Source: a virus | DNA length: 27,105 nucleotides | IMG/VR virus record: IMGVR_UViG_3300017751_000174 | Coordinates: 1-27,105 of that record | Strand: one strand, 5' to 3' | Shown here: positions 2 to 22,707 of the stretch, piece by piece | Numbering within the stretch: position 1 is the first letter of the stretch | Layout of the letters: each line of letters opens with the position of its first letter | The notes under the pieces: model-generated | Told to the model about the DNA's origin: nothing | The model's database searches: none | Seen by the model: only the letters and a program-made list of their open reading frames with translations | Position numbers and translations under genes: made by a program

Positions 2-826
2 ATTAATGCTTCAGGCGGCGGTGGAGGCGGTGGTACTGACCTCAACAGTTTAACAGGTGGAACACTTGATGTAGCATCAGATAGTATTGGATTTATTGAT
101 GCTGATGATTCTAATAATTCTAAAAAAGACACGATCGCTGATTTTGTTACAGCAATTGCAGGTACTAATTTAACAGCAAGTAACGGAGTATTAAACGCAT
201 CGGGTGGTAGCTCGGTTTCAAACACTGATATTATTAATGCAGTAACTGCCTCTGATTTAGATATGGGTGGTAATAAAGTATTATTTAATAATGTTTATTC
301 TACAGAAGGTGACTTACCAAATGCTTCAACTTATCACGGTATGTTTGCTCATGTACATGGTACAGGTGCAGCGTATTTTGCACACTCAGGTAACTGGGTA
401 CAACTTGCAAATAATTCAGACCTCGGTGGCGGAGGTGGAGGTGGAGCTTCAAGAGTACAAGAAGCAGAAACAACTGCTTCAATCTCAGATGGTGCTTCAG
501 GTTCTGTTGAATACGCAACGTTAGGATTATCATTCGCTTTACAAAAAGTTACAGTAGACAAACAATGTTGGGTAAGGATTTATTCTGATACAGCATCAAG
601 AACTGCAGACGCAGGAAGAACACAAGGAACTGACCCATCAAATGGCTCAGGTGTTATTGCAGAATTTATTGCTACAGCTTCTGGTACTACAGAATTTAAA
701 ATCACACCATCTATTATGGGATGGCTTGATGACAGTGAAACTGAGGTTCCAGTAGCAGTACAAAATAATTCTGGAAGTGCAGGAACAGTTACAGTTACTA
801 TTGACGTATTAAAACTAGAGAGTTAA
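2..826 (+). CDS. Phage tail-fibre-like protein, 5' end missing
   Basis: This reading frame is open from the first bases of the window, so the gene starts upstream; the in-frame ATG at 263 is internal, because the coding sequence before it is already typical of the protein. Visible parts in order are a poly-Gly linker, a module containing GFIDADDSNNSKKDTIADFV (about 86-145) that I recognise from marine phage fibres, a segment with YHGMFAHVHGTG (about 331-366), a second poly-Gly linker at about 424-447, and a C-terminal domain of about 120 residues containing WVRIYSDTASRTADAGR and ending VTIDVLKLES. The C-terminal domain resembles small beta domains at the ends of cyanophage virion proteins. 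A surface role in host contact is inferred from the modular, Gly-linked layout. No enzyme motif is seen. The next gene starts 4 bases after the stop, which suggests coupled expression. Confidence 0.75.
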   Translation: MNASGGGGGGGTDLNSLTGGTLDVASDSIGFIDADDSNNSKKDTIADFVTAIAGTNLTASNGVLNASGGSSVSNTDIINAVTASDLDMGGNKVLFNNVYSTEGDLPNASTYHGMFAHVHGTGAAYFAHSGNWVQLANNSDLGGGGGGGASRVQEAETTASISDGASGSVEYATLGLSFALQKVTVDKQCWVRIYSDTASRTADAGRTQGTDPSNGSGVIAEFIATASGTTEFKITPSIMGWLDDSETEVPVAVQNNSGSAGTVTVTIDVLKLES

Positions 827-830
827 ATAA

Positions 831-3092
831 ATGAGCAAACGTATTCATAACGTTATATTTCAGCCAGGGACAGATGAAGCAGATTTTCTAGCTAATGAAG
901 CAGCTGGAATGCAAGTTCATTGTAACTTTGATTTATGGGATGGTATGATTGCGATGATGTTGACTGACGAAGAAGCAGAAACATTAAGAGCAAGTTCTAA
1001 AGTAATTGAATGTGGACCAGAAAGAGATGTACAAGAATTAGTATCATATCCATCTACTACTCCAAGATACGAAACAAGCAGTGTAACATACAGAACTAAA
1101 TTTAATCCTACTGGTAATGGTGCAGAAAATACTGGTTTAAATATGTTTTTTACAAGCGAGTTTAAAACAGCAGATGGTACACAGCCATTTGGTTATTTTC
1201 AAGGTACTGAATATCAATTTGATGATACTGTTAAAAGCAATTATCTTGGTGAATATGTAGATATTGTTGCTATTGAAGCAGGTAGTCCAGCTTCAGGTAA
1301 TGCAGGTCACGAAGACCATGTTGATTTTGAAGAATGGGATAGTAATAATTCTAAATTTGTTCCTATGGAGTGGAGCGATACTTCCAGTTCAATGACTTCA
1401 GCAAGAAACAATCAAGTAACTAATAATAATACAAATTGGTTCTCATCTCATGCAATTGGTGTACTCAGTGCAGCAGGTGGTAAGTATTGTGGTTGGGGTA
1501 AAAAAAGTTCATTAAGAGTTATGTATTTAGCTGATGGTGTAACAACTGCTTACTATACAGCATTAACTTGGCACATTAATAAACCGGTCAATCCTGTCAC
1601 AGGAGTTCGTAATGCAACTGTAGTAACAGGAGCATGGGGATTCGTAGGAGTTGACCACGAAAGATTCTATAAAATAAATGATATCAGTCAGATTGTAGCA
1701 TATCAAGCAGATGGTTCGTCTGAAACAATTACTCGTAATAATAGTTATAAACCAAAAACTTGGAACATTACAATGACTGCTTCAGGCTCAAGTGCTTATG
1801 AAGTAACTGGTGATGATAGAATTTATGCTAAAGTTGCAGGTGATACACAAGTTAGTAATAGAGTTATTACTGTAAAACCGGGTGATACTGTAGTTATTGA
1901 TAATCAAGCATCTGGTGGACATCCATTATATATCAGAAAAAGCGGAACTAATGTTGCAGGAGTAAGTGGTCAAGGAACATCTACAGTTACAGTAACTATG
2001 CCAGAAGCCGGAGATGTTTATGATTATATTTGTGATTATCACGGTGGAATGACTGGTGAAATTAGAGCTAATGTTAGTAATAATTGGTACGATGACTATA
2101 GACCATTTGTAGATAATTTACTTATTCCAAGAGTTATCGAAGACCCTGCAGATAGTACTGACAAGTGGATGATTTCCATACCCGACCAAACAAGGTATTC
2201 TGCATTTGATACAGTAATGAGTCAATATAATAGTTATAATGGAATTTATGCATTTACAAGTGCAGGTAATAATTCTCATATTGGTGTAAGCCCAACAGAC
2301 CCAAGATTTAATACATCAATTACGGTTGATGCAGGTTCAACTTATGTTACCAATACAATTACAAATGATAGAAATACTTTAACATCTTCAACACAGGGTT
2401 CTCAAACAACTGTATATCCTTTGAGAGCAGAAAATACAGGTGGAGATAATCAGTTTACAATTGCTGCATGTCAACAAGATGATGTAAACAGATTAATGGA
2501 CGATTATAGTAGTCGTGGACCTCAGATTGATTTTGCTGCTTATGGTGCATATACTTGGACAAGCTATCCGACTGGTACTTATTCAGATGGCAAATGGGGA
2601 TATTTCAGTGGAACAAGTTGTGCAGCACCTCTCGCAGCTGGATGCGCAACAGTATTTTTAGAGCATTACTTTACTGAGCGAGGAGTATATCCATCCATTG
2701 CAAAATTAAAAGATATTATGGTTAACGCTGCAAAAGAAAATTTAATTGGAGATACAGACTTATCTACAGATGTAGATGACGGAATTGATTTCCAAAATGT
2801 TTCAGGTTCTTATCTTCTTAGTGCAACTTGTGTATATCAACCTCAAGATTTATCATCGAGCAAATTATATGCATCGACTGAAGTAAACAGAATTAAAGAT
2901 AATAATTATCAGAACGGTGGTGCAGAACTAACAGAGCTATACGGAACACCAGCATTAAGAGTACATATCCCTTGGGGAATTAGAATGGGCAACGGTAAAT
3001 ATATTGCCGGTGGTTCAGAACAAACAACAAATGGCAGAAGACCAGTAACAGGAAGAGCATGGCCTAGGCAAAAGGTTTCTTTTTCATCTTGA
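831..3092 (+). CDS. Subtilisin-like (S8) serine protease with I9-like propeptide and inserted cupredoxin domain
   Basis: This 753-residue protein looks like a subtilase zymogen. Residues 1-66 resemble an inhibitor I9 prodomain (DGMIAMMLTDEEAETLR). The catalytic His is probably H207 in SSHAIGVLSAAG, the oxyanion Asn N480 in TSAGNN, and the nucleophile S596 in FSGTSCAAP. The motif DYSSRGPQIDFAAYG (558-572) is also typical of S8 enzymes. At the expected Asp position the sequence reads VDIVAIEAG, which puts Glu149 where family members usually have Asp. Between the His and Asn motifs lies a cupredoxin domain, listed separately. The C-terminus (GRRPVTGRAWPRQ) resembles tails I know from phage virion proteins. 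No signal peptide is seen, so a virion-bound enzyme or a maturation protease is more likely than a secreted one. Its place between a fibre gene and gp8 supports a structural or late role. Whether it is active is uncertain because of Glu149. Confidence 0.8.
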   Translation: MSKRIHNVIFQPGTDEADFLANEAAGMQVHCNFDLWDGMIAMMLTDEEAETLRASSKVIECGPERDVQELVSYPSTTPRYETSSVTYRTKFNPTGNGAENTGLNMFFTSEFKTADGTQPFGYFQGTEYQFDDTVKSNYLGEYVDIVAIEAGSPASGNAGHEDHVDFEEWDSNNSKFVPMEWSDTSSSMTSARNNQVTNNNTNWFSSHAIGVLSAAGGKYCGWGKKSSLRVMYLADGVTTAYYTALTWHINKPVNPVTGVRNATVVTGAWGFVGVDHERFYKINDISQIVAYQADGSSETITRNNSYKPKTWNITMTASGSSAYEVTGDDRIYAKVAGDTQVSNRVITVKPGDTVVIDNQASGGHPLYIRKSGTNVAGVSGQGTSTVTVTMPEAGDVYDYICDYHGGMTGEIRANVSNNWYDDYRPFVDNLLIPRVIEDPADSTDKWMISIPDQTRYSAFDTVMSQYNSYNGIYAFTSAGNNSHIGVSPTDPRFNTSITVDAGSTYVTNTITNDRNTLTSSTQGSQTTVYPLRAENTGGDNQFTIAACQQDDVNRLMDDYSSRGPQIDFAAYGAYTWTSYPTGTYSDGKWGYFSGTSCAAPLAAGCATVFLEHYFTERGVYPSIAKLKDIMVNAAKENLIGDTDLSTDVDDGIDFQNVSGSYLLSATCVYQPQDLSSSKLYASTEVNRIKDNNYQNGGAELTELYGTPALRVHIPWGIRMGNGKYIAGGSEQTTNGRRPVTGRAWPRQKVSFSS
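1755..2072 (+). other. Cupredoxin (type 1 copper) domain inserted in the protease
   Basis: Residues of about 309-414 of the protease form a plastocyanin-like domain. They carry VKPGDTVVIDNQ, then GGHPLYI and YICDYHGGMTGEI. The ligand set His364, Cys401, His404 and Met407 matches a type 1 copper site, with C-x2-H-x2-M spacing. Subtilase sequence continues on both sides: the His motif lies before it and the Asn and Ser motifs after it. The domain is therefore an insertion and not a terminal fusion. Copper binding follows from the family; what it does on a phage protease is unknown. Confidence 0.8.
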
Positions 3093-3131: not shown

Positions 3132-4784
3132 ATGGCAGAAATATTAAGTAATAGTTTTAAATCAGATGTGACAAGGTTATTCATAGATGACCTCGTGAAC
3201 AATGATTATTATATTTTCGTATCTGGTATCGACACGTTCGCACCAGTCGATGCACAAGCCTCTAAAGCTGGATTCTTAGAGCGAACACTTTTTGGTAAAA
3301 AAATATTACCTAACGATATTCATTTTATGGTTAAATATTATCCTTGGCAGGTTGGTCAAGTATATACTGAATATGATGATAATATAGATTTAACTGACAC
3401 AAAATTTTATGCAGTAGTTGGTCCTAATGATAATGATACTGGTGATTACCGAGTATTTAAATGTTTAAATAACAATAATAGTACAACAGCATCAACACCG
3501 CCTAATTACGACCCTACTAATTCAAACCAAATATACATTACAGCTGATGGGTATGTTTGGAAATATATGTACTTTATTTCAACATTAGAATTTGACGCAT
3601 ATAATGCAATCGGTTATGTTCCAATTGTACCAACTCCAAATCCAAATAATCCTTTACCAACAACAAATAGTACTATATCAGATATTAAGGTAACTAATCC
3701 AGACGATAACTTTGGATATGAAGAGCACAGAGGCGGACTACTTCAAAGCCCATTTCAATCTGGCGTATTAATCGTTAACCCATTTACTGAATTTAGCCCA
3801 GTTCAAAACTTTTATACTGGTCAGTTTATTTACACTACTAATCCAACAGACGGTGTATCTCGTTTATTCCAAATTACTTATTATAACTATAATGAAAATA
3901 CAGGTAATGCTGAAATACGTGTTGGTGCTGAATTATTAACAGGTGCTCCAACACCAGATACAACTGGAGTATTGAGTAATGCTAACTTTAAAATATTCCC
4001 AAGAATAAAAATTACTGGTGATGGTACAGGAGCTGTAGGTATACCTAATATTGTAAACAATAAAATTGCAAGTATTACAGTTTTAAAAGAAGGAAGTGAT
4101 TACACTAATGCAACAATAGAAGTAATAGACCCTGGTACTAATCAATTTTTACCAGAAGATAATACAACAACAGATGTACGAGCATTAGCAAGAGCTCGTT
4201 TATCACCCCCAGGTGGCCACGGTTTTAATTTAATTGATGAATTAAAATGTAAACACTTTAGTTTTTATGGATATATTACAGCAGAAGACAATACTCAAAT
4301 TGGTGATGTTAATACTTACGGTGGTGTAGGTATTGTGCGATCACCTGAATTTGATAGTGGATTTACTGCTAATATATTCGACAACAGAATAGCAGTAGTA
4401 ACAGATGATTACAATAAACTAACAGCAAATAGTACAGTCATACAAGTCAATAGTAGCAATGAAACAACATTTAGTGGAAAAATACATGAAATTGACTCAT
4501 CAGCAAATACAGTTTATATTGCTGAGTATTTAGGACCATTCCCAAATAATGCAAATACGGGTCAATTACATTCAAATAACACAAACGATGTACCATTAGA
4601 TTTAACTTTACCATTTAGAAACGAAACAGGCCAGACTATCAATATAAATAATCCGGTAACAACAAACGTTACATTATCAAATTATATGCAAAAGACTGGT
4701 GAAGTCTACTTTATGGAGAACTTCTTCCCACTAGCAAGAACCGACCTATCTCGTGAGGAATTTAAGTTTGTACTGGAATTTTAA
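3132..4784 (+). CDS. gp8: Baseplate wedge protein, gp8-like
   Basis: This 550-residue protein matches the gp8 family of T4-like phages in its N-terminal pattern: MAEILSNSFKSDVTRLFIDD, then YYIFVSG, LFGKKILPNDIHFMVKYYPW, an acidic segment (YTEYDDNIDL), YRVFKCLNNN and ITADGYVWKYMYFIS. In T4 gp8 is part of the baseplate wedge beside gp6, gp7 and gp10. The protein is longer than T4 gp8 (334 residues), as in marine phage versions, with the extra length in the middle and C-terminal parts (about residues 180-480). The start follows a NATAAATA promoter with a weak ribosome site. The next gene begins 13 bases after the stop. I am confident of the family and less sure of exact one-to-one equivalence with T4. 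Confidence 0.82.
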   Translation: MAEILSNSFKSDVTRLFIDDLVNNDYYIFVSGIDTFAPVDAQASKAGFLERTLFGKKILPNDIHFMVKYYPWQVGQVYTEYDDNIDLTDTKFYAVVGPNDNDTGDYRVFKCLNNNNSTTASTPPNYDPTNSNQIYITADGYVWKYMYFISTLEFDAYNAIGYVPIVPTPNPNNPLPTTNSTISDIKVTNPDDNFGYEEHRGGLLQSPFQSGVLIVNPFTEFSPVQNFYTGQFIYTTNPTDGVSRLFQITYYNYNENTGNAEIRVGAELLTGAPTPDTTGVLSNANFKIFPRIKITGDGTGAVGIPNIVNNKIASITVLKEGSDYTNATIEVIDPGTNQFLPEDNTTTDVRALARARLSPPGGHGFNLIDELKCKHFSFYGYITAEDNTQIGDVNTYGGVGIVRSPEFDSGFTANIFDNRIAVVTDDYNKLTANSTVIQVNSSNETTFSGKIHEIDSSANTVYIAEYLGPFPNNANTGQLHSNNTNDVPLDLTLPFRNETGQTININNPVTTNVTLSNYMQKTGEVYFMENFFPLARTDLSREEFKFVLEF

Positions 4785-10171: not shown

Positions 10172-10357
10172 ATGACAAATATTAAAAGAGACAAAAAGAG
10201 TGGAGCTGTACTTAACACAGATGCAGCTGCGCTGAATAAATATAAAGTAGAGCGATTATATTATCGTAAAGTAGATAAACTACAAGACGACATTTTAGAA
10301 ATTAAGCGCAGCATAATTTCCATTTATGAGAGAATAGAAAAGCTGGAAACCAAATAA
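10172..10357 (+). CDS. Small charged helical protein, function unknown
   Basis: This 61-residue protein is rich in Lys, Arg, Glu and Asp. Residues of about 20-60 show hydrophobics spaced for a coiled coil (LYYRKVDKLQDDILEIKRSI onward to RIEKLETK). Small proteins with a similar opening (IKRDKKSGAVLNTDAAALNK) occur in this position in related marine myoviruses as I recall, always without a known function. The gene starts 10 bases after the large DUF4815 gene with AAGGCA ahead of the ATG. Its TAA stop overlaps the next ATG by one base (TAATG), a sign of translational coupling with the S74 fibre gene. A role as a small assembly or adaptor helix is only a guess. Confidence 0.75.
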   Translation: MTNIKRDKKSGAVLNTDAAALNKYKVERLYYRKVDKLQDDILEIKRSIISIYERIEKLETK

Positions 10358-11442
10358 TGGCTAAAAATATATCAAATGTAAATACTTCCGACACGTTTCA
10401 ACAGTGGTTAGATAAAACTAATGCTTTTGCTTCGGCGTTTAGAACAGATGTAGTTACAACTGGGTCTGGTGATACAGCTGGACAAGGTAATGCACAAATT
10501 ACTGGTAACTTTACAGCTGCTGCTTTTTTAGGAGATGTTCAGACTGATGCTATATCTGCAGAAACATCTTCTGCTGTTATTCAAGTTAATAGCCCATTTA
10601 AAGTTAATGGTGCATCACAAACAACTGCTACATTTTCTAACGGAACCGGTGGTCAAGTTGAATTTACTAATGGTAGTTTAACATGGGATGTTGGTTTAAA
10701 AGATAGTGGTGGTAATTTTCTTATTAACACTGGAGCCGGTGACTCTAAATTTGAATTGTCATCAGCTGGTACGTTAACTGTTCCAAACATTACAGTAACT
10801 GAAGACATCTCTGCTAATAATTTTATTGGTGATGGTTCTCAATTAACTGGAGTTATATCATCTGTTGCTCTTGACGATATATCAGATATTACACTTACAA
10901 ATGTACAAGGTGGCCAAGTATTAAAATATAACTCAAGTGCAGGAGCATGGGTTAACGATACAGATTTTGATGGTGGCTCTAATGTAAACGCTGCAACACT
11001 TGACAATTTAGATAGTACACAGTTTTTAAGAAGTGATGCTAACGACACATATACTGGTGATTTAACAGTATCTGGTGCTATTAACCAAACTGGAAATATG
11101 GCAATAGACGGTGCACTAACGGTTACTGGAGATATTACAACTAATTATAGTGCATCTGATGAAAGATTAAAAGAGAATTTAAAAGTTATTGAACAACCAC
11201 TAGAAAAAATAAATGCAATTAGTGGTTACACATTTAATTATAAAGATAAACCCCGAGAAACAGTTCCGGGAGTTATCGCACAGGAAGTTGAAAAGGTTCT
11301 TCCTAACGTTGTATTTGACCACGAAAGAGATGGTGGTACATATAAAGCCGTTCGCTATGACCAATTAATCCCTCTACTGATAGAGTCGATTAAAGAATTG
11401 AACGAAAAAGTCAATGAATTGCAAAATGAGTTGAATTCGTAA
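10357..11442 (+). CDS. Tail fibre with C-terminal S74 self-cleaving chaperone domain
   Basis: This 361-residue protein starts MAKNISNVNTSDTFQQWLD and has a long, low-complexity beta region that includes FIGDGSQLTG, a common fibre motif. From residue 267 on it shows the intramolecular chaperone (peptidase S74) domain: SDERLKENL, then INAISGYTFNYK, PGVIAQEVEKVLPNVV and YDQLIPLLIESIKELN with a coiled-coil end. Ser267 and Lys272 have the five-residue spacing of the S74 Ser-Lys dyad. By analogy with endosialidase and T5 fibres, the domain would trimerise the fibre and then release itself, leaving a mature fibre of about 266 residues. The start overlaps the preceding stop. The short length suggests a short fibre or whisker-like part and not a long tail fibre. 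Confidence 0.88.
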   Translation: MAKNISNVNTSDTFQQWLDKTNAFASAFRTDVVTTGSGDTAGQGNAQITGNFTAAAFLGDVQTDAISAETSSAVIQVNSPFKVNGASQTTATFSNGTGGQVEFTNGSLTWDVGLKDSGGNFLINTGAGDSKFELSSAGTLTVPNITVTEDISANNFIGDGSQLTGVISSVALDDISDITLTNVQGGQVLKYNSSAGAWVNDTDFDGGSNVNAATLDNLDSTQFLRSDANDTYTGDLTVSGAINQTGNMAIDGALTVTGDITTNYSASDERLKENLKVIEQPLEKINAISGYTFNYKDKPRETVPGVIAQEVEKVLPNVVFDHERDGGTYKAVRYDQLIPLLIESIKELNEKVNELQNELNS

Positions 11443-11496: not shown

Positions 11497-14400
11497 ATGG
11501 CAAAAATTTCAGAATTACCTCCTATTACCGGTGCTAATACCAGGCCTGAGGATTTATTTGTAATTGTCAACCTGGTTCAAGGTGACGATGGTACGAGTAA
11601 CATTACTAGGAAAGAACTGGTTCAAGCTATTCAGTATGAGATTTTTGACCGCATCACAATCACTGGCGGTACAATATCCGGTGTTCAAATGCGAGACTCG
11701 ACTCTCGATAATGTTCGTATTGATAATTCAGATATTGAAGATACTAATTTTCTCAGAGGAACAATCCGAGATACTGAAATCTTTAATTCCACCGCTAATA
11801 ACATTACAATTACTTCATCATCATTTACTGATGGTTCTTTAGTATCTTCAACTGGTGAAGATTTAGCAATTGCAAACTCTTCGTTTACTGATGGCACAAT
11901 CACAGATTCTACTGGTAACAATGTAGTACTTACAAGTTCAGAACTAAATGATAGTACTGCAAACAATGTCGTAATAACAAATTCCGAGTTTAATGATGGT
12001 ACAGGAAATAATGTAACATTAACTAACTCAACTATTGATGATTCTACAATCACTGATAGTACTGCTAATAACGTAACAATTACTCAATCAACATTCGACG
12101 ATGGCGCATTAAGTAATAGCACAGCTAATAATATTACAATGACTTCTTCCACATTTGGAAGTGGTGATATATTTGATAGTACTGCTAATAACGTAACAAT
12201 TACAAATTCTGATTTCTCAGAAGGTACTGGTTCTAATAATACATTTACAGATACAACACTTCTTGGTGGTACTGCAAATGCTGTAATCATTACTAATTCT
12301 GAATTTAACGATGGTACAGTTAATAACACAATTATTACTTCATCTGAATTTAATGATGGTACTGGAAATAATGTAGTACTGACTAATTCAACCATTGATG
12401 ATTCTACATTTACAGATGGTACAATATCTAATACTGATTTCCAAGGTACAATGCAAGATGTTGTAGCTACCGATATGACAATCAGAAGCTCATCTGCAGA
12501 TGGTCTTTCTTCAAATAATTCATCGTTCGATAATGGCACGATGTCAGGGTCAGTATTTGATGGTGGTACAATATCAAACTCTAACCTTGTCGACTTCGAC
12601 ATGGACATTAATAAAGAGTTTGAAGCACCAATTACAGATGAAACATTCTTTGCTATTAAAAATGAGAAAACTGGTGAAACAGAAAAAATCAATTTTGCTC
12701 AACTTTACGATGAAGTATCTAAGAAAACAGCACAAGCTTTAAAAGTTAATGTAGACGCTGCATCTGGTGACGATAAAAATCCAGGCACAATGCTACAACC
12801 TGTACAAACATTAGAAAAAGCGTTTGAACTATGTTTAGAAAAAGCAGGTGGTGACTTAAACAGAAACGCAATTAACAACGCAGTTCATATATCAGTTGGT
12901 CCTGGTACATATTATACAAAAGGTAATCTCATGTTACCTGATGATTGTTCATGTACTTCAACAGCTGGTCAGTATGCTACTGTTATCGAATTACTTCCTG
13001 GATATGAAAACAATAACGGAATCTTAGTTGGTTCTGGTTGTTATGTTCAAGGCTTCGGTTATCAGAACTTCCAAGTTGATAACTTTGATTTCCCAGAGGG
13101 TGGATTTGCGATCGCATATCGACCTGGTGCTAAACTATTACGTTCACCTTACTTAAGAGATAGTACTCAGTTATCTAACTTCTTACGACAAGATGTTGAA
13201 CCACCTTTAAATCCTTATAACACAAAAGGTACTCTTGCTGACCTAGGTAGAGAGTTTACATTAGCAACTGGACTTACAGGTTCTTGGGCAATGGACGATG
13301 AGATTGTATTCTCATCTGGTGCTATCGGTTACTTATCTTGGGACGATGCACAAGACGCACTGAAAGGCGTATCTGGTGATATTGCTACTTATCGTAAAAT
13401 TAGAGTTCGTAACCTTAAGAATGGTCAAGGATTCGCGGTTGGTGACACAGTAACTTCAGAGTCAGGCGGTGTTGGTGTTATCGAATCAATTGGTATTGAT
13501 GACTTCCCGAACAGAGCAGTTGGAAGAGGTGGTGGTTGTGTACTTGCAGACAGAAGAGTACTAGACACAGACTCACTATATACTTACGTATTATGTTTTG
13601 GTTTCACACCTCGTACTCAAAACGGTTTAGGTTATGTTGCTAGAGATGGTGCTGGTGTTAACGGTATTGGTTCTCTATCCATCTTCGTACGATGTGCATT
13701 CTATGCATTGAATGGTGGACAGATGACTCTGAACAACTCAGGTACTCAGTTCGGTGACATCTCAATGAGAGCAAAAGGTACTACAGAGTTCTTTGCTCCT
13801 AAGTCAACTACTGCAACAATTATTGGTAATACAGCTTTTGCTGATACTATTAATACTCAAGCTGATGATATTATTGACGACATGGTTGTTTACTTAACAT
13901 CCAACACAGCAAACGGTGGATTAGGTTACCAAGAGTATGATTCAGAAAAATGTTTAAGAGATTCAGGTATTGTACTTGACGGAACAGGTTATGACATTGC
14001 TCTCGATACTAACTATTGGGGAAGACTTGGTGGAATTACATATAGGTCTCCTATCAGTTATGTTGTACCAGGTGAACAATTAGAAGAAACAAAAGGCGCA
14101 CTTGAATATCTAAGAGATAGAACAAAAGAGGTATTTGATAGTGGTAATCCAAAAGTTAATGGCCGTATTGATACTTCATTCAGCGAATTACTCAATGTAT
14201 TAGAGTATGGCGAAGAAAACATTAACCCAATTATTTGGCAAGATACTTCAGTTGCTCAAACTGCAGCACGTAACTTAATACAAGATAACAGAGATTTAAT
14301 TACTAACGAACTTATTGACTGGATTGAAAACAACGGTCAGTTCTATGCATACGACAGTGCAGCATGCAGAAGAGATGTTTCAGACTATATTCTTCCAGCT

Positions 14401-17400
14401 GTTAAAAACGATATGTTGTTTGACACAAACTATAATGCAGTAACTGCAGGTAGAGCTTATTATATGGCTACTGCAAAAACTGTTATGGAAAATCAAAACA
14501 ACGAAACAGTAGCTGCATACAAAAGATTAAAAGACCAAACAAACGAATTAATTGATGGCGATTCTTATCTTGCTTCACAAAGATTAGATGATAGCTTTGA
14601 TAATATATTAGAAATCTTAGAAAACAAAGGAACACAGTTTACTCCTACTGCTGCAACTTACGACCCAGAAACTGGGTTATCAGTTATCACACTCGGCACT
14701 AAGAAAGATTTCACACCATCAGCTGTTGACTATGACCCTGCTACAGGAATTATGACAGCAACTGTTGGTAAACATGCACTAACCACTAAAGACCATATAT
14801 GGTTTAAACCAGGTGGTATAACATTTAGTTGTGATGCAGGTTCTGGCGTACAAAATCATGCTGTACCTGAATCACATCACCCTTACTATAATAAACCATG
14901 TCCAATTACTAGTGTAACTTCAAACACTATTACAATGAATGTAGGAGTTGGTGGTCCAACTGGTCAACAAGTACATACCTTCGTATCAGCCGTACCAAAT
15001 GCTTTAACATCAGGCCACGGTTTAGGAGTTGGTAGAAAAGTATTATTAAAAACTGGTGGCTTAGTATTTACATGTGACAGAGATAATAATGCATCACGAA
15101 CAGGATATCCAAGAGCTTCTGACCCAGCTGCTGGAACACCGATTGAAGTTATTGGTGCAAATGAAACTAAGATTACAGTTAATGTTGGTAAATCTGCAAT
15201 TATAGATGACCATACATTTGTTGAAGCATTAACAAATTCAGTATCAGTATTAGGTGACGACATTCATTATAGTAATGACGTTCCTGCTAATAACGCTAAT
15301 GCTAGAAAACAACTTCAGAAGAACAGAGAGTTCTTGCAAGACCTAGTTGAAGGTTATATCAATGATACCTATTTCAGATATGATTCTGATAAGTGTCAAC
15401 GTGATATTAAATCTTATATTTTACCTGCTGTTGAAAGAGATATTCTAACAGGTTCAAACTATAATGCAATTCAAACTGGTATTGCATACAGAAGTGGTAC
15501 AACACTTGCAGATAATGTTATCAATGAGCAATTGGTAGAAACAACTGGTGCTATTAACGAATTACGAACAAGAGTTAATTTAGACAATACAGAAACTGGA
15601 TTCACAGTAACTGGTGCTACTTATGACCCAGCTACTGGAGACTTTACAGCAACTATTGGTACTGGACACGGTTTAGCAATTGGTGATTACATCATGTTTG
15701 CCGATGAAGGTATAACAATGAGTTGTGATATGGGAAGTGGTCAACAGAATCACACATCTCCACAATCACATCACCCATATTGGAGAACACCTTGCCCAAT
15801 TACTGGAGTAACTTCAACAACTATTTCTATGAATGTTGGAGATGGTGGAACTGGACAATATCCACATACCTTCGTATCAGCTGTTGCTAATGCTATTACT
15901 CCTGCTAAAGGAGTTGGTTTAAGCTTTACGCCAACAGATGCTTCATACGACCCAGAAACTGGAAGGTTTGAAGCAACAATCGGTCATCACCATTTACAAG
16001 TTGGAGATTACGTAAGGTTCTTATCAGGTGGTGTTACATTTAGTTGTGATACAGGAAGTGGAGTTCAGAATGACTCAGTACCTGCTGTAGGGCATCCTTA
16101 TTATAATCACCCTTGCCCAGTTCATTCAGTAACTGGAACATCCATCGTAATGTATGTTGGAACGGGTGGTACTAATCCTCATACCTTTGTATCTGCATTA
16201 GATAACTCAATTATAGAAATGAGAGCAATTGATGAAAATGCTTCTGGATTTAGAAGTAACGAATCATTCGATAAAATTGTTTCTATTGTTAATAGTTCAA
16301 ATAAAACTTACTCTACAAGTAATGCTACTTATGACCCAGTAACTGGTTTAACAGTACTTACAGTTGGTTCTCACGATTTACAAATCGGCGATGAGATAAT
16401 GCTTGCTCCTAATAGCTTGACATTTACTTGTGCTACTGATGGTAATGTTTCACAACATACTTATCCAACAACAACGATTACAAACTTTACACCTACTGGT
16501 GCTACTTATGACCCAGCAACTGGTGTATTCACTGCAGAAATTGGTAGTCATAAATTACAAATTGGTGATGAAATTGAAATCGCACCTAACAGTATTGTAT
16601 TTACTTGTGCACTTGATGGTAACCAAGTACAACATCCTGCGCCAGAACCACATCACCCATTCTATAAGAAGAAGATTAAGTTAACTGCAGTTACAGCAAC
16701 AGGAATTGAATGTAATGTTGGAGCTGTAGCAAATGGCGGTGGAGCACATACGTTTGAATCTGCAATCACAAATGCTATACAAGGTGAAAGAAAGCATCCT
16801 GCATACAAGAAAGCTGTAGTAGTTGCTGCTAAGACAGACACAACAATAACAATGAATGTTGGTACATCAACTGATACATCTACACATACATTCGTATCGG
16901 CAACTGCAGATAATGTTAAATCTGCTAAGTATGTTTCAACATATACACCTAGAACAGCTACTTATGACCCAGCAACTGGAGTCTTCGTAGCAACTATCGG
17001 TCAACACAATTTAGTAGCCGGTGATTATGTATCTATCGCACCTGAAAGCGTAGTGTTTACTTGTGCAATGGATGGTAATAGTTACGAACATGCTGTTCCA
17101 CAAGGACATCACCCATTCTATAAAGTACCAGTAATGTTATCTAGCGTTACTGCTGATACAATAACAATGAATGTTGGTACTGGACCTGGTGGAGCTCATA
17201 CATTTGTAAGTGCTCAAGTTGGAGCTATTGATTCTGATGCGTTAGTATTTACTGACCCAGCATCCTATGTTAAACATTACACACCAACAACAGCTACTTA
17301 CGACCCAGCAACTGGTGTTTCAGTTATTACTATGCCAGGGCATGATTTAACAACTGATGACTATATTGAGTTTACTCCTTATAGCTTCACTTATACATGT

Positions 17401-20400
17401 GCTCAAGATGGTAATGCTACTGAACATTCATATCCAAGAAAAGGAGATAGCAACTACAGAACTCCAATGGCAATTACAAATATTGCTGGTGATGATATTA
17501 CTGTTCAACTTGTTGTATCTTCTGGTGGTGCTCATACATTTGTAAGTGTTGAAAAAGACGCTGTATCTAAAGTTACTTATAACTCTCAAGGTCAATATGC
17601 TAGAGAGCAATTACAAACTAATAAAGATTACTTAGCTAAGAAAGTATCTGCTTACTTAGATTCACAATACTTCGTATTTGATGGAGTAAAATGTTCTAGA
17701 GATTCTGGATTTATTTTAGATTCTGTAAGACGTGATATTGCAACTGGTTCTACTTGGAATTCTCAATTTATGGGATTAGGCTACAGAACTGGTTCTGTAG
17801 GAGCTACTGAAGTAATCACCGAACAATTAACAGAAACTGTTGCTGCAATTAACTTCCTTAAAGGAAAGGTTGCTGCAGACCCAAGTGTTACAGGAACTGC
17901 ATTAACTCGTTCTAACCAACACTTTGATAAAATTATTGATATCATGCAAAACGGTGCTGCTAACACAGGTACTAAATCTTACGGTGCAGATGCTGCGGTA
18001 ACAATTAATCATAAAGAAGCAACAGATACATTATTATCCAATAGAGCATTTATTATTGCTGAAACTACTGCATATATTGCAGACCAATATCCATCACTAA
18101 CATATGATGTTGCATCTTGTGAAAGAGATACTGGTTATTTAGTTGACTCATTAATTCAAGATGTTAGATTTGGTGGTAATACATGTTCAGTTAACTTCGC
18201 AAGACTTTACTTTGAAAATGCTGTATCAGTATTAGCTGAAGACCAGAAAGTACCAACATATAAAACTTGGGAACATATTGCTGAAATTGCATATAAGATT
18301 GTTAGAAACATTACAATTACTCCTACAACAGGAAATGCAGTATCACAAGTAACTGGTGCTGATAGAGGTATTGAAGTTGCTAATGCTGCAAGAGATGCTA
18401 TTAACATTGTAACTCAAGTAATTAGTGATGATACTTTAGATTACTTACCTAAGTACATTGAACCTAATGTTGAAGCTGCTATGGCTTCTGCTGTTGCTGC
18501 AATTGATGGTATAACAGAAAATCTATCAGAAGCAGTAATTGATTACCTTAGAGATGAACATAACGGATTACCATATACTAAATCAGTTTGTGAAAGAGAT
18601 GTCGGCCTTATGGTTGATGCTATATCTCGTGATATCGAATATGGTGGTAATGAGAATACATTGGAAGTGTTTGATTACTACTTCAGAAGATTCGATTCTC
18701 AATCAGCTGATTACGAACAACAGCGTTCAGTTAACGTATTACCACTTGAAGTAAAAGGTCAGTTCAGAAGATTATCAGATTATGAAGATAATGCTAATGT
18801 ATCTGGTTTAAGAGAAGCGATCAACGTTCTTCCATACGAACAACGTAAACCAACAAAACAAGCATTTACAGTTCTTGCTGATAATGCTGCTGAAATTGTT
18901 GCACAAATTGGTAACGGTATTGTAGGAACTCAATATACTCCAACTAATGCTACTTATGACCCAGCAACTGGTGTATTCACTGCAACGATTGGTTCTCATA
19001 ACCTTGTTGAAGGTGACAGTATTTGGTTGAAGCCAGAAGGATTTGTATTCTCTTGTGATATGGGTGGCGGTGTTGCTAACCATACTTCACCTCAGGCTCA
19101 TCACCCATTCTATAATAAACCAGTAATTATTACGAACACAACACCTACTGTTATAACAATGAATGTTGGTGGCGGTGGTTCTGGTCAGTATCCACATACA
19201 TTTGTTTCTGCTGATGCAAATTCAATTAGTGATGGTCCTTATCAAATTACTGATGGTACTGCTGCTTCAGTATCAACAGGTACTGCTGTACATGACCTCA
19301 TTCAAACTATTGCAGACTTAATTGATGATACTAATATTGAAACATCTCAATTACCAACATTAACTAAAGCATCGTTTGACCCGAACAGAACACTAGCAAG
19401 AAAGAACATCCAACGTAACAGAGAATTTATTATCGAAGAATTACAAGGATACTTGCAAGACAGATATTATGTCTTCGATGGTGACAAGTGTAAAGCTGAC
19501 TTAGGATTTATTCTTGATGCTGTTAAAACTGATGTACTAACAGGTTCTAATTATAATTCTGTATACGCAGGACTTGCTTATAATATTGGAACTACAAACA
19601 CAACTAGAGTATTAACAGAACAATTAACAGAAACAATTTCTGGTATTAATTATGCTAAGAATCTTGTGCTTGAAGCTGTAACTGATGATGCTGCAAAATT
19701 AAGAGTAGAATCTAGCTTTAACGAAATCATAGACATTATGACTAATGGTAGAGGAGCAGCTGATGCTATTAACTTTACAACTAACGCAGCTAATGTTAAT
19801 CGACTTAATGCATCACAACAATTACAAAATAACAAAGTATTCTTACAAGCTGAAATAACTGCTTGGTTGGCTGCAAACAGACCTTCACATACTTACGATG
19901 TAGCAAAATGTGAAAGAGATACTGGTTACATGATTGATGCTATCTCGTTTGACGCACAACATCGTGGAAACTTTGGTACTATTAACTTTGCTAAATTATA
20001 TTTTGAAAATGCAATATTAGTTGGACTACCTCAAGACCAGGTTGAACCAACTGCTGCTGCATATATTCACTTAGGTGATTGTGCTGATTTAATTGTACAA
20101 GACCAAGATATTGGTGGATTAAAATCAGCAGGAAATGGCGAAACACAAAATATAAGTTCAGGCTCTGCAGGAGCTGCGATTGGTGCTGAAGTTGAAGGAT
20201 TATTTGATATTGTTGCTAATGCAATTACTAACAATACAATGTTATTAAGTCCTCCAGTTCAATTCCCAACACTTGGAAACTATGACGATGCAAATCAATC
20301 TGCATTTGGTGAAATTGAAGCTGTCAAATCAACTGCACAATCTGGTGTACTAAAACACTTATCACAACAATTTGAAGTACTTCCTTATAGTGAAGCGAAG

Positions 20401-22707
20401 TGCAGAAGAGATACTGGATATATTGTTGATGCTGTTGCTCACGATATTCAATATGGTGGTAATGCAGCTACGGTACAAACTGCTGGAATGTATTTTGAAA
20501 ATGCAGTTAATACTGGATTACAAATCGAACAAAGAATGGGAACAAGAGATGCATTCTTACACATGGCAAAAATCATTGAACACGTTGCTGGTGGTAAAGA
20601 CATTGAAACTAAGATGTTCCCAAGAACAGGAAAATACTATACTGGTGATATCGTAACTAAATACGAATACTGGAATGGAGTAACTTCTTATCAGTCAACA
20701 GAAGCTCAAGACATGCAAGTACATGGTGCAAATCCAAATACTTGTATAGCTGCAAGAAAACTTGTAGAGATTGTTGCTAACGCGGTTGATGATTCTAATG
20801 AGGTTAGAAATACAATCCCTGATCGCATTGATGTTAACCAAACTTGGATGGGTGATAACTTTATCACTGCTAAAGAGATAATGGAAAGTCAATCTCAAGT
20901 ATTAGGTCATGCAGTAATTAGTTACTTATCACATACACATAACGGATTATCATTTAGAGATGCTAAGTGTAGAAGAGATATTGGATTCTTAATTGATGCA
21001 GCATCTCACGACATTAATAATCAGACTAACTTTGCAATGCGTCAAGCTGCAGGAATTTACTTCGAGAATGGAGTATCAGTACTACCTATTGACACAAGAG
21101 TACAGACTGCTAATATTTACCAATTCCTCGGAGATGCGGTTGAACAAGTTGTACAAGAAATTGCAGTAACTAACGCAGTTAATTACACATTAACTCCACA
21201 GAATACTGCAGGAACTGCTGCTACAGCAACTGAAGGCGCAAGGGTACATGAATTAATTGGATACATTGAAAATGTTATTATAGCAAATGATGTAGACGAA
21301 CTACCTGCTCCAGAGTCAACCGGTACTCAATCTGCTGAATTAGTAACAGCTGCACAAAGTATTGTTGATGAAACTGAAGAGCTTGCATCTGATGTAACAC
21401 AATTTATTAATAGTAACTTTGATGTACTTGATTATAACAAAGCGAAGTGCAGAAGAGATACTGGTTACTTACTCGACGCGTTTAGCTTCGACTTAAACTT
21501 TGGTGGAAACACTGCTTCAAGATGGAATGCAGATTTCTACTTCTGGAATTCAGTTTACAGATTACCAGAAGACCAGAGAATACCAACTGCAAAATCTTAT
21601 AGACATCTAGGCAGAATTTGTAAAGACATCGTATTAGGTGAATACGCAAATCAAGTAGTAATTGGTGAAGTAGCAACTTCAGTTGAAAGCTTGAAAGTTG
21701 AAGAATTAGCAAATATATTCTACAACACTCAACTGTATAATGATACTAAGTACTTACCAGTTAAGACTGAGCCAGATTACGCATATTCTTCATCAATATT
21801 TACTGATGCACAAGCTGTAATAGCTCAAAGAAGAAAGCAATTACAGAAAGATACTGTAAGATTTGTTAATTCAGAATACAACTTCATTGATATTAATCTA
21901 TCAAGGCGTGATGCTAGAAACTTACTCACAGCAGTTTATAATGACTTTGCTTATGATAAGTTTGACCCAGATGTTCCAGTACCAACATACAGTGATAATG
22001 GTTCACAGAATGCTGTAAGAACATACACTGCATCATTCTTTGACTATGATGGTACTCATGTATTCCCAGTATTTAACCCAACAAGACAAGGATTAAAATA
22101 CAAAGGTTCAGTTGCTCAATTATCTGATTTATCATCGATAACTGGAATGAAACCAAACTGGTCATACATTGTTGCTACTGATTACTCAACTAACTTCTAC
22201 GCTGGTAATATATACTACTGGAACGGCTCGACTTGGGTATTAGATGGAGTCAACAATACTGACCTTCTAGATGCATTTACTGGAGCTTGGGACAGAATGA
22301 GAGATTATATTGTTAATAATATATCTCCTAACTCAGAACATAGCTTAATGGTTGAAGGTTTATTTAATGACTGTCTAAAAGATAACATATTAAGACCTCA
22401 AACGTTAATATTTGGAGCCTTGGTTGAATCCATTGCTCACCAGTTTAACGGTGCTTCTGCAGGTGTTAACAGAAACGCGTTACCGCTTAACTTCAGAAAC
22501 TTAGGTGCTGCTATTTCAGCGGTTGCTTCGGTACTCAACGAAGACGGTGGTAGAATACGATGGTCGGGTGCTGATGAATTGAATAACCAGTACTTCGCAA
22601 GAGGATTGAGGATTAATGGTCGAACAGGACGAATTGAAGGTAGACCGTTTACATCATCTGTAAGAAAACTTGCAAGAAGAGCTTCAAACTCAAGAGCATC
22701 ATTATAA
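11497..22707 (+). CDS. Giant modular virion protein (3736 residues)
   Basis: This single frame covers about 41% of the window. In order it holds an N-terminal head (MAKISELPPITGANTRPEDL); a repeat region rich in T-A-N-N and N-D-G (about residues 54-368); a parallel beta-helix or pectate-lyase-like domain (about 419-800) opening with a GDDKNPGT motif and a later P-x-x-T; then about 2600 residues of repeated modules. These are helical modules marked by KC-x-RD (11 copies with Cys, first Cys at residue 819, last at 3318) and beta modules marked by YDP-x-TG and HHP (9 copies). The C-terminal part has a small domain with IYYWNGSTWVLDG and a conserved-looking end (GVNRNALPLNFRN, RIRWSGADELNNQYFARGLR) with a basic tail. 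I know similar KCRRDTGY modules from marine myovirus structural proteins. A long host-facing fibre is the likely role. No catalytic motif is certain. Confidence 0.85.
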   Translation: MAKISELPPITGANTRPEDLFVIVNLVQGDDGTSNITRKELVQAIQYEIFDRITITGGTISGVQMRDSTLDNVRIDNSDIEDTNFLRGTIRDTEIFNSTANNITITSSSFTDGSLVSSTGEDLAIANSSFTDGTITDSTGNNVVLTSSELNDSTANNVVITNSEFNDGTGNNVTLTNSTIDDSTITDSTANNVTITQSTFDDGALSNSTANNITMTSSTFGSGDIFDSTANNVTITNSDFSEGTGSNNTFTDTTLLGGTANAVIITNSEFNDGTVNNTIITSSEFNDGTGNNVVLTNSTIDDSTFTDGTISNTDFQGTMQDVVATDMTIRSSSADGLSSNNSSFDNGTMSGSVFDGGTISNSNLVDFDMDINKEFEAPITDETFFAIKNEKTGETEKINFAQLYDEVSKKTAQALKVNVDAASGDDKNPGTMLQPVQTLEKAFELCLEKAGGDLNRNAINNAVHISVGPGTYYTKGNLMLPDDCSCTSTAGQYATVIELLPGYENNNGILVGSGCYVQGFGYQNFQVDNFDFPEGGFAIAYRPGAKLLRSPYLRDSTQLSNFLRQDVEPPLNPYNTKGTLADLGREFTLATGLTGSWAMDDEIVFSSGAIGYLSWDDAQDALKGVSGDIATYRKIRVRNLKNGQGFAVGDTVTSESGGVGVIESIGIDDFPNRAVGRGGGCVLADRRVLDTDSLYTYVLCFGFTPRTQNGLGYVARDGAGVNGIGSLSIFVRCAFYALNGGQMTLNNSGTQFGDISMRAKGTTEFFAPKSTTATIIGNTAFADTINTQADDIIDDMVVYLTSNTANGGLGYQEYDSEKCLRDSGIVLDGTGYDIALDTNYWGRLGGITYRSPISYVVPGEQLEETKGALEYLRDRTKEVFDSGNPKVNGRIDTSFSELLNVLEYGEENINPIIWQDTSVAQTAARNLIQDNRDLITNELIDWIENNGQFYAYDSAACRRDVSDYILPAVKNDMLFDTNYNAVTAGRAYYMATAKTVMENQNNETVAAYKRLKDQTNELIDGDSYLASQRLDDSFDNILEILENKGTQFTPTAATYDPETGLSVITLGTKKDFTPSAVDYDPATGIMTATVGKHALTTKDHIWFKPGGITFSCDAGSGVQNHAVPESHHPYYNKPCPITSVTSNTITMNVGVGGPTGQQVHTFVSAVPNALTSGHGLGVGRKVLLKTGGLVFTCDRDNNASRTGYPRASDPAAGTPIEVIGANETKITVNVGKSAIIDDHTFVEALTNSVSVLGDDIHYSNDVPANNANARKQLQKNREFLQDLVEGYINDTYFRYDSDKCQRDIKSYILPAVERDILTGSNYNAIQTGIAYRSGTTLADNVINEQLVETTGAINELRTRVNLDNTETGFTVTGATYDPATGDFTATIGTGHGLAIGDYIMFADEGITMSCDMGSGQQNHTSPQSHHPYWRTPCPITGVTSTTISMNVGDGGTGQYPHTFVSAVANAITPAKGVGLSFTPTDASYDPETGRFEATIGHHHLQVGDYVRFLSGGVTFSCDTGSGVQNDSVPAVGHPYYNHPCPVHSVTGTSIVMYVGTGGTNPHTFVSALDNSIIEMRAIDENASGFRSNESFDKIVSIVNSSNKTYSTSNATYDPVTGLTVLTVGSHDLQIGDEIMLAPNSLTFTCATDGNVSQHTYPTTTITNFTPTGATYDPATGVFTAEIGSHKLQIGDEIEIAPNSIVFTCALDGNQVQHPAPEPHHPFYKKKIKLTAVTATGIECNVGAVANGGGAHTFESAITNAIQGERKHPAYKKAVVVAAKTDTTITMNVGTSTDTSTHTFVSATADNVKSAKYVSTYTPRTATYDPATGVFVATIGQHNLVAGDYVSIAPESVVFTCAMDGNSYEHAVPQGHHPFYKVPVMLSSVTADTITMNVGTGPGGAHTFVSAQVGAIDSDALVFTDPASYVKHYTPTTATYDPATGVSVITMPGHDLTTDDYIEFTPYSFTYTCAQDGNATEHSYPRKGDSNYRTPMAITNIAGDDITVQLVVSSGGAHTFVSVEKDAVSKVTYNSQGQYAREQLQTNKDYLAKKVSAYLDSQYFVFDGVKCSRDSGFILDSVRRDIATGSTWNSQFMGLGYRTGSVGATEVITEQLTETVAAINFLKGKVAADPSVTGTALTRSNQHFDKIIDIMQNGAANTGTKSYGADAAVTINHKEATDTLLSNRAFIIAETTAYIADQYPSLTYDVASCERDTGYLVDSLIQDVRFGGNTCSVNFARLYFENAVSVLAEDQKVPTYKTWEHIAEIAYKIVRNITITPTTGNAVSQVTGADRGIEVANAARDAINIVTQVISDDTLDYLPKYIEPNVEAAMASAVAAIDGITENLSEAVIDYLRDEHNGLPYTKSVCERDVGLMVDAISRDIEYGGNENTLEVFDYYFRRFDSQSADYEQQRSVNVLPLEVKGQFRRLSDYEDNANVSGLREAINVLPYEQRKPTKQAFTVLADNAAEIVAQIGNGIVGTQYTPTNATYDPATGVFTATIGSHNLVEGDSIWLKPEGFVFSCDMGGGVANHTSPQAHHPFYNKPVIITNTTPTVITMNVGGGGSGQYPHTFVSADANSISDGPYQITDGTAASVSTGTAVHDLIQTIADLIDDTNIETSQLPTLTKASFDPNRTLARKNIQRNREFIIEELQGYLQDRYYVFDGDKCKADLGFILDAVKTDVLTGSNYNSVYAGLAYNIGTTNTTRVLTEQLTETISGINYAKNLVLEAVTDDAAKLRVESSFNEIIDIMTNGRGAADAINFTTNAANVNRLNASQQLQNNKVFLQAEITAWLAANRPSHTYDVAKCERDTGYMIDAISFDAQHRGNFGTINFAKLYFENAILVGLPQDQVEPTAAAYIHLGDCADLIVQDQDIGGLKSAGNGETQNISSGSAGAAIGAEVEGLFDIVANAITNNTMLLSPPVQFPTLGNYDDANQSAFGEIEAVKSTAQSGVLKHLSQQFEVLPYSEAKCRRDTGYIVDAVAHDIQYGGNAATVQTAGMYFENAVNTGLQIEQRMGTRDAFLHMAKIIEHVAGGKDIETKMFPRTGKYYTGDIVTKYEYWNGVTSYQSTEAQDMQVHGANPNTCIAARKLVEIVANAVDDSNEVRNTIPDRIDVNQTWMGDNFITAKEIMESQSQVLGHAVISYLSHTHNGLSFRDAKCRRDIGFLIDAASHDINNQTNFAMRQAAGIYFENGVSVLPIDTRVQTANIYQFLGDAVEQVVQEIAVTNAVNYTLTPQNTAGTAATATEGARVHELIGYIENVIIANDVDELPAPESTGTQSAELVTAAQSIVDETEELASDVTQFINSNFDVLDYNKAKCRRDTGYLLDAFSFDLNFGGNTASRWNADFYFWNSVYRLPEDQRIPTAKSYRHLGRICKDIVLGEYANQVVIGEVATSVESLKVEELANIFYNTQLYNDTKYLPVKTEPDYAYSSSIFTDAQAVIAQRRKQLQKDTVRFVNSEYNFIDINLSRRDARNLLTAVYNDFAYDKFDPDVPVPTYSDNGSQNAVRTYTASFFDYDGTHVFPVFNPTRQGLKYKGSVAQLSDLSSITGMKPNWSYIVATDYSTNFYAGNIYYWNGSTWVLDGVNNTDLLDAFTGAWDRMRDYIVNNISPNSEHSLMVEGLFNDCLKDNILRPQTLIFGALVESIAHQFNGASAGVNRNALPLNFRNLGAAISAVASVLNEDGGRIRWSGADELNNQYFARGLRINGRTGRIEGRPFTSSVRKLARRASNSRASL
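11656..12600 (+). repeat. Coding repeat region, beta-helix-like T-A-N-N / N-D-G repeats
   Basis: The N-terminal part of the giant protein is a run of short repeats of the type T-A-N-N-V-x-I-T-x-S-x-F-x-D-G. They resemble pentapeptide-like or beta-solenoid rungs. The DNA is repetitive too. A 29-base identical stretch occurs at 12055-12083 and 12175-12203, exactly 120 bases apart. A 63-base near-copy occurs at 11986-12048 and 12346-12408, exactly 360 bases apart. A 120-base (40-residue) higher-order unit fits both. Confidence 0.8.
12751..13890 (+). other. Pectate-lyase-like parallel beta-helix domain
   Basis: Residues of about 419-800 of the giant protein start VDAASGDDKNPGT with PVQTLEKAF behind it, the entry motif of many right-handed beta-helix proteins. 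Short alternating Gly/Asn turns and strands follow, such as GILVGSGCYVQGFGYQNFQV, FVRCAFYALNGGQMTLNNSG and TATIIGNTAFADT. Family members bind or cut polysaccharides, but I cannot point to catalytic residues here. Confidence 0.6.
13930..22000 (+). repeat. Helical KC-x-RD module array, 11 copies plus one degenerate
   Basis: The marker Cys codons lie at 13951, 14365, 15394, 17692, 18118, 18589, 19489, 19909, 20401, 20968 and 21448. A twelfth copy near 21900 reads LSRRDARNLLTAVYNDFAYD and has lost the Cys. Each copy has C-x-R/A-D, a helix ending D-A-x-x-x-D, and often GSNYN or GGN. Several are followed by EQL-x-ET helices and an SFDxIxxI helix. Adjacent copies without inserts are 138-189 residues apart. 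A 25-base identical stretch at 20393-20417 and 21440-21464 shows recent duplication or recombination. Confidence 0.82.
14638..19227 (+). repeat. Beta-module array (YDP-x-TG ... HHP ... HTFVSA), 9 copies
   Basis: The copies are at 14638-14709 with 15007-15243 (split), 14710-15006, 15601-15897, 15925-16212, 16309-16485 with 16780-16917 (split), 16486-16779, 16942-17229, 17278-17565 and 18934-19227. Whole copies are 96-99 residues long. Each begins F/Y-x-P/S-x-x-A-x-YDP-x-TG, has IGD and F-x-C-D/A central strands, often HHP-F/Y-Y, and closes with T-I-x-M-N-V-G and HTFVSA. A 36-base identical stretch (16501-16536 and 18949-18984) links two copies about 2.4 kb apart. The function is unknown; a surface beta domain is likely. 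Confidence 0.83.

Follow-up and report, generated by a model that had tools for sequence, protein, structure and literature searches.

The window analyzed here is a 27,105-nt stretch of marine bacteriophage DNA, in which an open reading frame (ORF) at 831-3092 on the plus strand encodes a 753-aa protein consisting of a subtilase of the Peptidase S8 family and a cupredoxin domain inserted into it. The ORF lies among baseplate genes, with a gp10-like gene upstream and a gp8-like gene downstream, an arrangement that identifies the locus as a T4-like baseplate region. The features of the locus are as follows.

2-826, plus strand: C-terminal 274 aa of a gp10-like baseplate/tail-fibre-connector protein (phrog_9627 and phrog_677; relatives compared)
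831-3092, plus strand: S8 subtilase with inserted cupredoxin, 753 aa (Pfam, AlphaFold2 model)
831-1037, plus strand: prodomain-like unit, residues 1-69, beta-alpha-beta-beta-alpha-beta (secondary structure of the model, block pLDDT 86-96; alignment to 3wiu)
1275-1277, plus strand: Glu149 at the position of the catalytic Asp (alignment A5)
1449-1451, plus strand: catalytic His207 (65/65 rows with a letter there)
1629-1640, plus strand: Gly267-Ala-Trp-Gly270 ahead of the insert (alignment; strand 262-267 in the model)
1755-2072, plus strand: cupredoxin cassette, residues 309-414 (Pfam, profiles; present in L063 and absent from its near-twin L097)
1920-1922, plus strand: copper ligand His364, followed by Pro365 (44/44 copies)
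2031-2033, plus strand: copper ligand Cys401 (in register in 43/44 copies, permuted in the remaining one)
2040-2042, plus strand: copper ligand His404 (in register in 43/44, permuted in the remaining one)
2049-2051, plus strand: axial ligand Met407 (in register in 43/44, permuted in the remaining one)
2268-2270, plus strand: oxyanion Asn480 (Asn in 65/66 rows with a letter there; Ser in L167)
2616-2618, plus strand: catalytic Ser596 in the motif FSGTSCAAP (67/67 rows with a letter there)
3132-4784, plus strand: gp8-like baseplate wedge subunit, the next gene (phrog_438, E 2e-52)

The 274-aa gp10-like part at 2-826 contains no cupredoxin; many relatives have one in that gene. Further along the window, 10357-11442 encodes a protein resembling tail fibres that has an endosialidase-type chaperone (Peptidase_S74) close to its C-terminal end, an ORF of 3736 aa occupies 11497-22707, and a tail protein with collagen repeats, 1296 aa or longer, encoded at 23216-27103, extends past the end of the stretch.

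Residues 465-637 of the ORF 831-3092 product match the Pfam family Peptidase_S8 (E 9.9e-12), and an AlphaFold2 model of the protein reached a mean pLDDT of 84.4. The model was computed from alignment A5 (n = 100), which joins subtilases of the window type with the cores of two further S8 types and with cupredoxins from C-terminal positions; an earlier model based on 19 close homologues had a mean pLDDT of 47 and was set aside. Model residues 99 to 717 align with the proteinase K-like enzyme 2b6n (Z 29.9, 263/278 residues, 2.7 Å), and the S8 fold therefore continues across the cupredoxin insert. The initial annotation had asked whether the S8 fold closes around the insert, and it does so in this confident predicted structure (pLDDT 84, pTM 0.84). 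Pro-Tk-subtilisin (3wiu) aligned from model residue 2 onward (353/395 residues), from which residues 1-69 are recognized as the prodomain-like unit. Along the chain, the insert follows strand 262-267 and the GAWG motif, which we take by analogy to be the counterpart of the subtilisin S1-pocket strand, and precedes a helix and a strand leading toward Asn480. The 50 structure matches listed by VIA-align were all S8 proteins, which take up every row, and the result is not evidence against a cupredoxin fold.

The Asp-His-Ser triad is present in altered form, with His207 and Ser596 in place and the Asp replaced by Glu149. In alignment A5, among rows with a letter at this position, Glu stands in 38/38 of the window type and Asp in 27/27 of the other two S8 types; the subtilase of the cultured phage S-CAM1 likewise has Glu, in an IVTLESG motif. 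Its fold and ancestry place the protein in S8, its triad being altered, and we do not claim it as an active peptidase. The replacement of the catalytic Asp by Glu extends over this entire clade of phage subtilases, which keeps His, Asn, Ser, and the prodomain-like unit. Three subtilases (L073:859-4029, L099:6001-8802, and L111:407-3235) carry approximately 300 extra residues, in which no Pfam match was found at E 0.1, and in one contig the subtilase frame is split in two (L037:772-2654), through either a frameshift or a sequencing error.

The initial annotation had recognized a type 1 copper cupredoxin inside the subtilase from H364, C401, H404, and M407, flanked by H207, N480, and S596 of the enzyme. 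All of these residues lie where it had placed them, and the inserted domain is complete. The Pfam match to Copper-bind at residues 342-411 (E 7e-4, 20.3 bits) narrowly missed the cut-off of 21.2 bits, with sister copies falling both above it (L014 with 23.6 bits, L175, L181, L184, and L187) and below it (L016, L042, and L073). A profile built from eleven phage copies of the domain (profile A2) located the cupredoxin at residues 307-414 with 149.6 bits and detected this one copy only in the frames of the window. When compared with solved structures, the phage-copy profile matched Cupredoxin 1 (1.7e-5), amicyanin (2.5e-5), plastocyanin (2.7e-5), and also rusticyanin, the matches to solved cupredoxins spanning E values from 1e-5 to 1e-3. 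In the model, strands from 310 to 413 form the cupredoxin beta-sandwich (block pLDDT 72-95), and Foldseek matched the model to the cupredoxin-bearing nitrite reductase 2dv6 (E 2.8e-5, 120 columns).

The motif C-x2-H-x2-M with HP 20-60 residues ahead of it arose in 2/20,000 shuffles of the protein, and the ligands recur in 44/44 non-redundant relatives; the motif is therefore not due to chance. These 44 copies were retained from 163, at loci that had not been fetched by the ligand pattern, after removal of copies with fewer than 75 matched profile positions and of near-copies with 3-mer sharing of 0.65 or more. The first His is present in 44/44, and Cys, His, and Met are in register in 43/44, the 44th copy being that of S-CAM1, which keeps Cys, His, and Met in permuted order. 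Homologues without the Cys-His-Met set, which according to the initial annotation would speak against the assignment, were thus not encountered among the 44 copies. Column conservation is highest at the four ligands, Pro365, and Tyr399, and the residues are kept even in the gp10 copy of L090 and in L131, where the spacing between the second His and Met is three residues rather than two. The first His is followed by Pro in 44/44 copies, as opposed to Asn in the amicyanin and plastocyanin matched by the profile, and the second shell of the site therefore differs from that of those proteins. Such invariance of the ligands points to a bound metal, most probably copper, that matters to the function of the domain.

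To follow the insert among close relatives, a locus table of 179 rows was reduced to 47 distinct window-type subtilase loci by dropping rows whose S8 match missed the insertion point and merging near-copies. The inserted cupredoxin is present in 29/47 of these loci and absent from 18/47, so that other phage S8 proteins with the insert at the same place, a search for which had been suggested at the outset, do exist. The DNA of L063 and L097 is 98.1% identical over 1860 aligned nt, and their length difference of 342 nt, in frame, corresponds to the cupredoxin, which lies between shared NRP and WGTD motifs, with a few residues differing at the junctions. L014 and L009 have subtilase bodies that are 90.6% identical and cupredoxins that are 42.7% identical; the corresponding values for L088 and L132 are 44.9% and 78.5%. 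On a tree of the S8 bodies, built by a quick method and including some long branches, the state of the insert changes 6 times, at least 5 of these changes being forced by starred branches. The cupredoxin is an exchangeable cassette, which marine T4-like phages attach, swap, and drop.

In 43/45 loci with an informative upstream gp10-like gene, a cupredoxin is present in the subtilase or in the gp10-like gene (19 in the subtilase only, 9 in both, 15 in the gp10-like gene only, and 2 in neither; Fisher p 0.0005). One of the two loci with neither has a cupredoxin at the end of the ORF preceding the gp10-like gene (L205), and no cupredoxin was found in the 22-kb contig of the other (L215). Independent tree pairs do not support the idea that a cupredoxin in either of the two genes stands in for one in the other: among 5 such pairs, 0.0 on average changed in the same way, 1.3 in opposite ways, and 3.7 showed no difference. 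The apparent trade-off between the two genes is a pattern only and is non-significant once relatedness is allowed for.

Beyond the window-type loci, the cupredoxin is combined with S8 domains in several other ways. It lies C-terminal to the S8 domain in S-CAM4, ACG-2014e, S-H9-1, and ACG-2014h, and at the site corresponding to that of the window in two other S8 types, represented by AG-345-F15 (with which the relatives L151, L162, and L167 align) and by S-BM3. In P-HM1, a cupredoxin follows the S8 domain and a partial 14-bit match precedes it; tandem cupredoxins follow the S8 domain in L164, L168, L175, L176, L184, L187, and L192; an esterase-like domain (weak Pfam scores) separates the S8 domain and the cupredoxin in L183 and ACG-2014h; and in P-SSM2 and Sf-CH5 the cupredoxin resides in the tail-fibre gene downstream of the S8 gene. 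The phage proteins encoded at L183:379-3351, L280:3977-6907, and L283:2021-8455 combine a subtilase with an esterase-like domain of the alpha/beta-hydrolase kind and with a cupredoxin or a stretch resembling one. In S-BM3, the S8-cupredoxin protein (L277:3128-8317) also contains, further along its chain, a YHYH domain (Pfam E 2.5e-14).

Some copies are circularly permuted. In S-CAM1 (L041:7080-9332), a permuted cupredoxin occupies the loop that connects the catalytic Glu with the catalytic His: against a doubled profile, residues 198-304 align unbroken to positions 95-205 (66 bits), versus two pieces of 45 and 7 bits with the single profile. The same Glu-His loop site is empty in the relative L325. 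In L315, L318, and L320, a second permuted copy lies where ORF 831-3092 has its canonical copy; the alignment places a second permuted copy at the canonical site in L316 as well, and in L317 and L321-L323 the motif is found at the same places. The canonical insertion site is empty in S-CAM1, L310, L313, and L325. The set formed by L304-L328 and the cultured S-CAM1 contains permuted cupredoxins in one or two loops per subtilase, together with empty-site relatives.

A tblastn search with the S-CAM4 copy matched 92 phage records (72 of Synechococcus phages, 15 of Prochlorococcus phages, 3 of marine viruses, 1 of an Actinomycetia phage, and 1 of a cyanophage), and for many of the 60 matches listed the annotation reads baseplate wedge tail fibre connector. 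The profiles used found no S8 domain in several cupredoxin carriers, namely, the connector of S-RIM8, the tail fibre of Bellamy, and the proximal tail fibre of P-SSM2. An S8 of this kind is present in 17 phage records, including that of one single-cell virus; the domain was matched in 12 of them, including S-H38, where the sole match is a 114-aa frame that is perhaps a free plastocyanin, and in the other 5 no cupredoxin was found at E 0.001 anywhere in the record; the pairing of S8 and cupredoxin is therefore common, not obligatory. An S8 domain is present in the cupredoxin ORF at 62 of the best 80 loci for the domain, a count that is not to be read as a frequency, because the query rows were mostly S8-borne. 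At 18 of the best 80 loci (L140-L142, L144, L145, L150, L152, L153, L155, L157, L159, L161, L165, L172, L173, L179, L180, and L190), the ORF is without an S8 domain according to the profiles used, with frames of approximately 1100-2100 aa and 1-3 cupredoxins. In the Actinomycetia phage DSL-LC01, the cupredoxin protein (L278:3122-4492) is encoded between collagen-like genes and an annotated tryptophan halogenase gene.

A pattern scan of cellular genomes, one for each of 84,980 species, yielded 29 matches, 13 of which are relatives, with titles naming Bacteroidota, euryarchaea, a haloarchaeon, and a chloroflexus and none naming cyanobacteria. A slightly looser pattern recovered at least 245 confirmed copies from viral contigs, a comparison that leans toward phages, both patterns having been built from phage copies. 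The cassette appears to belong to a cupredoxin subfamily that, in the scans made here, is found mostly in phages. An origin from a host plastocyanin gene was considered and not retained, no cyanobacterial relative having been found with a short C-x2-H-x2-M pattern that would miss ordinary plastocyanins.

The gp8-like protein of the window is nearest to those of phages of heterotrophs, and the capsid protein of the relative L012 is 65.5% identical to those of phages of heterotrophs versus 63.9% for the best cyanophage listed, a small margin. No psbA gene was found in the 156-kb contig of L012, which is possibly incomplete. The window may still derive from a cyanophage.

In the initial annotation, the cupredoxin was interpreted as a metal-binding or redox-sensing surface part, perhaps one that stabilizes the protease in the virion or switches it on at the cell surface. 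The complete cupredoxin within a subtilase whose fold closes around it has stood up to analysis; the stabilizing or switching function has not, since near-identical subtilase genes occur with and without the insert (L063 and L097), the domain often resides in a neighbouring gene instead, and it also occurs on tail proteins in which no S8 domain was detected. The presence of the domain on protease-free tail proteins, and of the protease without the domain, renders a built-in stabilizer or switch unlikely. Among the literature matches listed, we found no paper that describes a cupredoxin as part of a subtilase or a tail protein of a phage.

We propose that the gene product is a baseplate-region subtilase that would be carried in the virion and may act as a protease, composed of a putative prodomain, an S8 core with Glu149-His207-Ser596, and one complete type 1 copper-type cupredoxin plugged in after the presumed S1-pocket strand. 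Carriers of the cassette subfamily would comprise subtilases, subtilase-esterase fusions, gp9/gp10-like connectors, and fibres of marine T4-like phages. On these proteins, the cassette may form a stiff, metal-locked beta-sandwich exposed on the tail surface, comparable to the accessory binding domains of tail hydrolases, and could help the enzyme or fibre to engage the surface of the host or to settle there. The accessory modules with which phage tails bind surfaces are position-independent, repeated, recombined, and shared with fibres and connectors. The cupredoxin resembles them in being independent of the protease and of position, often repeated, recombined, and common to fibres and connectors, which is why we favour, for tail hydrolases and fibres alike, a surface module that binds metal over a link in an electron-transfer chain or a fixed protease switch, while giving this interpretation slightly less than an even chance. 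The ligands, invariant in 44/44 copies, exceed the needs of a plain scaffold, and the metal may therefore do chemistry, which counts against a surface module.

The same invariance bears on the possibility that the domain is a purely structural lock, an Ig-like spacer in which bound copper or zinc stiffens the end of a loop with no specific partner. Ig-like decorations are common on phage tail proteins, Ig domains occur in the same protein in S-TIM54, and the position-independent, tandem, and freely swapped cupredoxins would fit such a spacer. Nevertheless, none of the 44 copies has lost any of the four ligands, the axial Met among them, even where the ligand loop is one residue longer (the gp10 copy of L090 and L131), and we regard a mere lock as unlikely, if still worth serious consideration.

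The place of the insert would be accounted for by copper or redox control: at the edge of the substrate cleft, binding of the metal or its reduction would uncover or obstruct the S1 side and thereby confine protease action to the host surface. In the window clade, the AG-345-F15 type, and S-BM3, the insert comes after the S1-pocket strand, as does the permuted insert of L315, L316, L318, and L320, and the ligands are invariant; however, near-identical proteases without the insert exist, and in many cases the domain occupies a different part of the protein or belongs to another gene, and it also occurs on proteins with no detected protease. Because the protease body exists without the domain, we rank a protease switch below the surface module and consider it rather improbable. 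Similarly doubtful is a broader use of the metal at host contact, either as bait for a copper-binding surface protein of the host or as a redox trigger of a tail enzyme.

The bait could take the form of a copper "Ferrojan horse," in which tail-held copper would be recognized by a copper-uptake or surface protein of the host and the phage would dock by offering the metal. Annotation of carriers as tail fibres or connectors, the invariant ligands, and the several copies in some proteins agree with this idea, but we know of no host copper receptor for these phages, and we judge it more improbable still. Its precedent is the existing hypothesis that iron in phage tail fibres baits a host receptor (PMC11705849). 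A role in real electron transfer, with electrons supplied or withdrawn at the envelope or the photosynthetic chain of the host, has in its favour the fold and ligands of blue copper proteins and the occurrence of petE as a free gene in cyanophages (PMC3037559), but is very improbable given that the domain is part of tail-type proteins and not a free carrier, that psbA was not found in the 156-kb contig of L012, whose capsid protein is nearest, by that small margin, to phages of heterotrophs, and that no redox partner domain was seen.

If copper is held in the virion, these tails would be metalloprotein devices, and phage adsorption would depend in part on copper in the sea, a kind of link already proposed for iron. 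Irrespective of what the domain does, the pair with and without it, the swapped pair, and the recurring permuted insertion constitute an unusual natural record of a whole metal-site domain being plugged into and out of an enzyme. The cultured phages S-CAM1, S-CAM4, and P-HM1 carry the domain, so that the question is open to experiment.

With the blue copper proteins (amicyanin, plastocyanin, and Cupredoxin 1, 4hcf), the phage domain shares the H...C-x2-H...M set in the same order, and differs in being built into a protease and in having circularly permuted members. The plastocyanin encoded by petE is also a cyanophage-borne cupredoxin, but a free metabolic protein; the available part of the same report describes an S8 peptidase cluster in P-HM1 and P-HM2 and makes no mention of a cupredoxin domain in tail proteins (PMC3037559). 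The fold, the His, Asn, and Ser motifs, and the prodomain are shared with Peptidase S8 enzymes such as proteinase K and the pro-subtilisins, from which the ORF 831-3092 product differs by Glu at the position of the catalytic Asp and by the cupredoxin between His and Asn. The top viral match among predicted structures (E 4.5e-39), the tail fibre protein AOV57349 of S-CAM1 (phrog_15006), is a related S8 protein with Glu, whose cupredoxin differs in being permuted and located in the Glu-His loop. The S8 protein of S-CAM4 and ACG-2014e (phrog_9158) likewise combines an S8 domain with one cupredoxin of the subfamily, but the cupredoxin is C-terminal and the catalytic Asp is kept.
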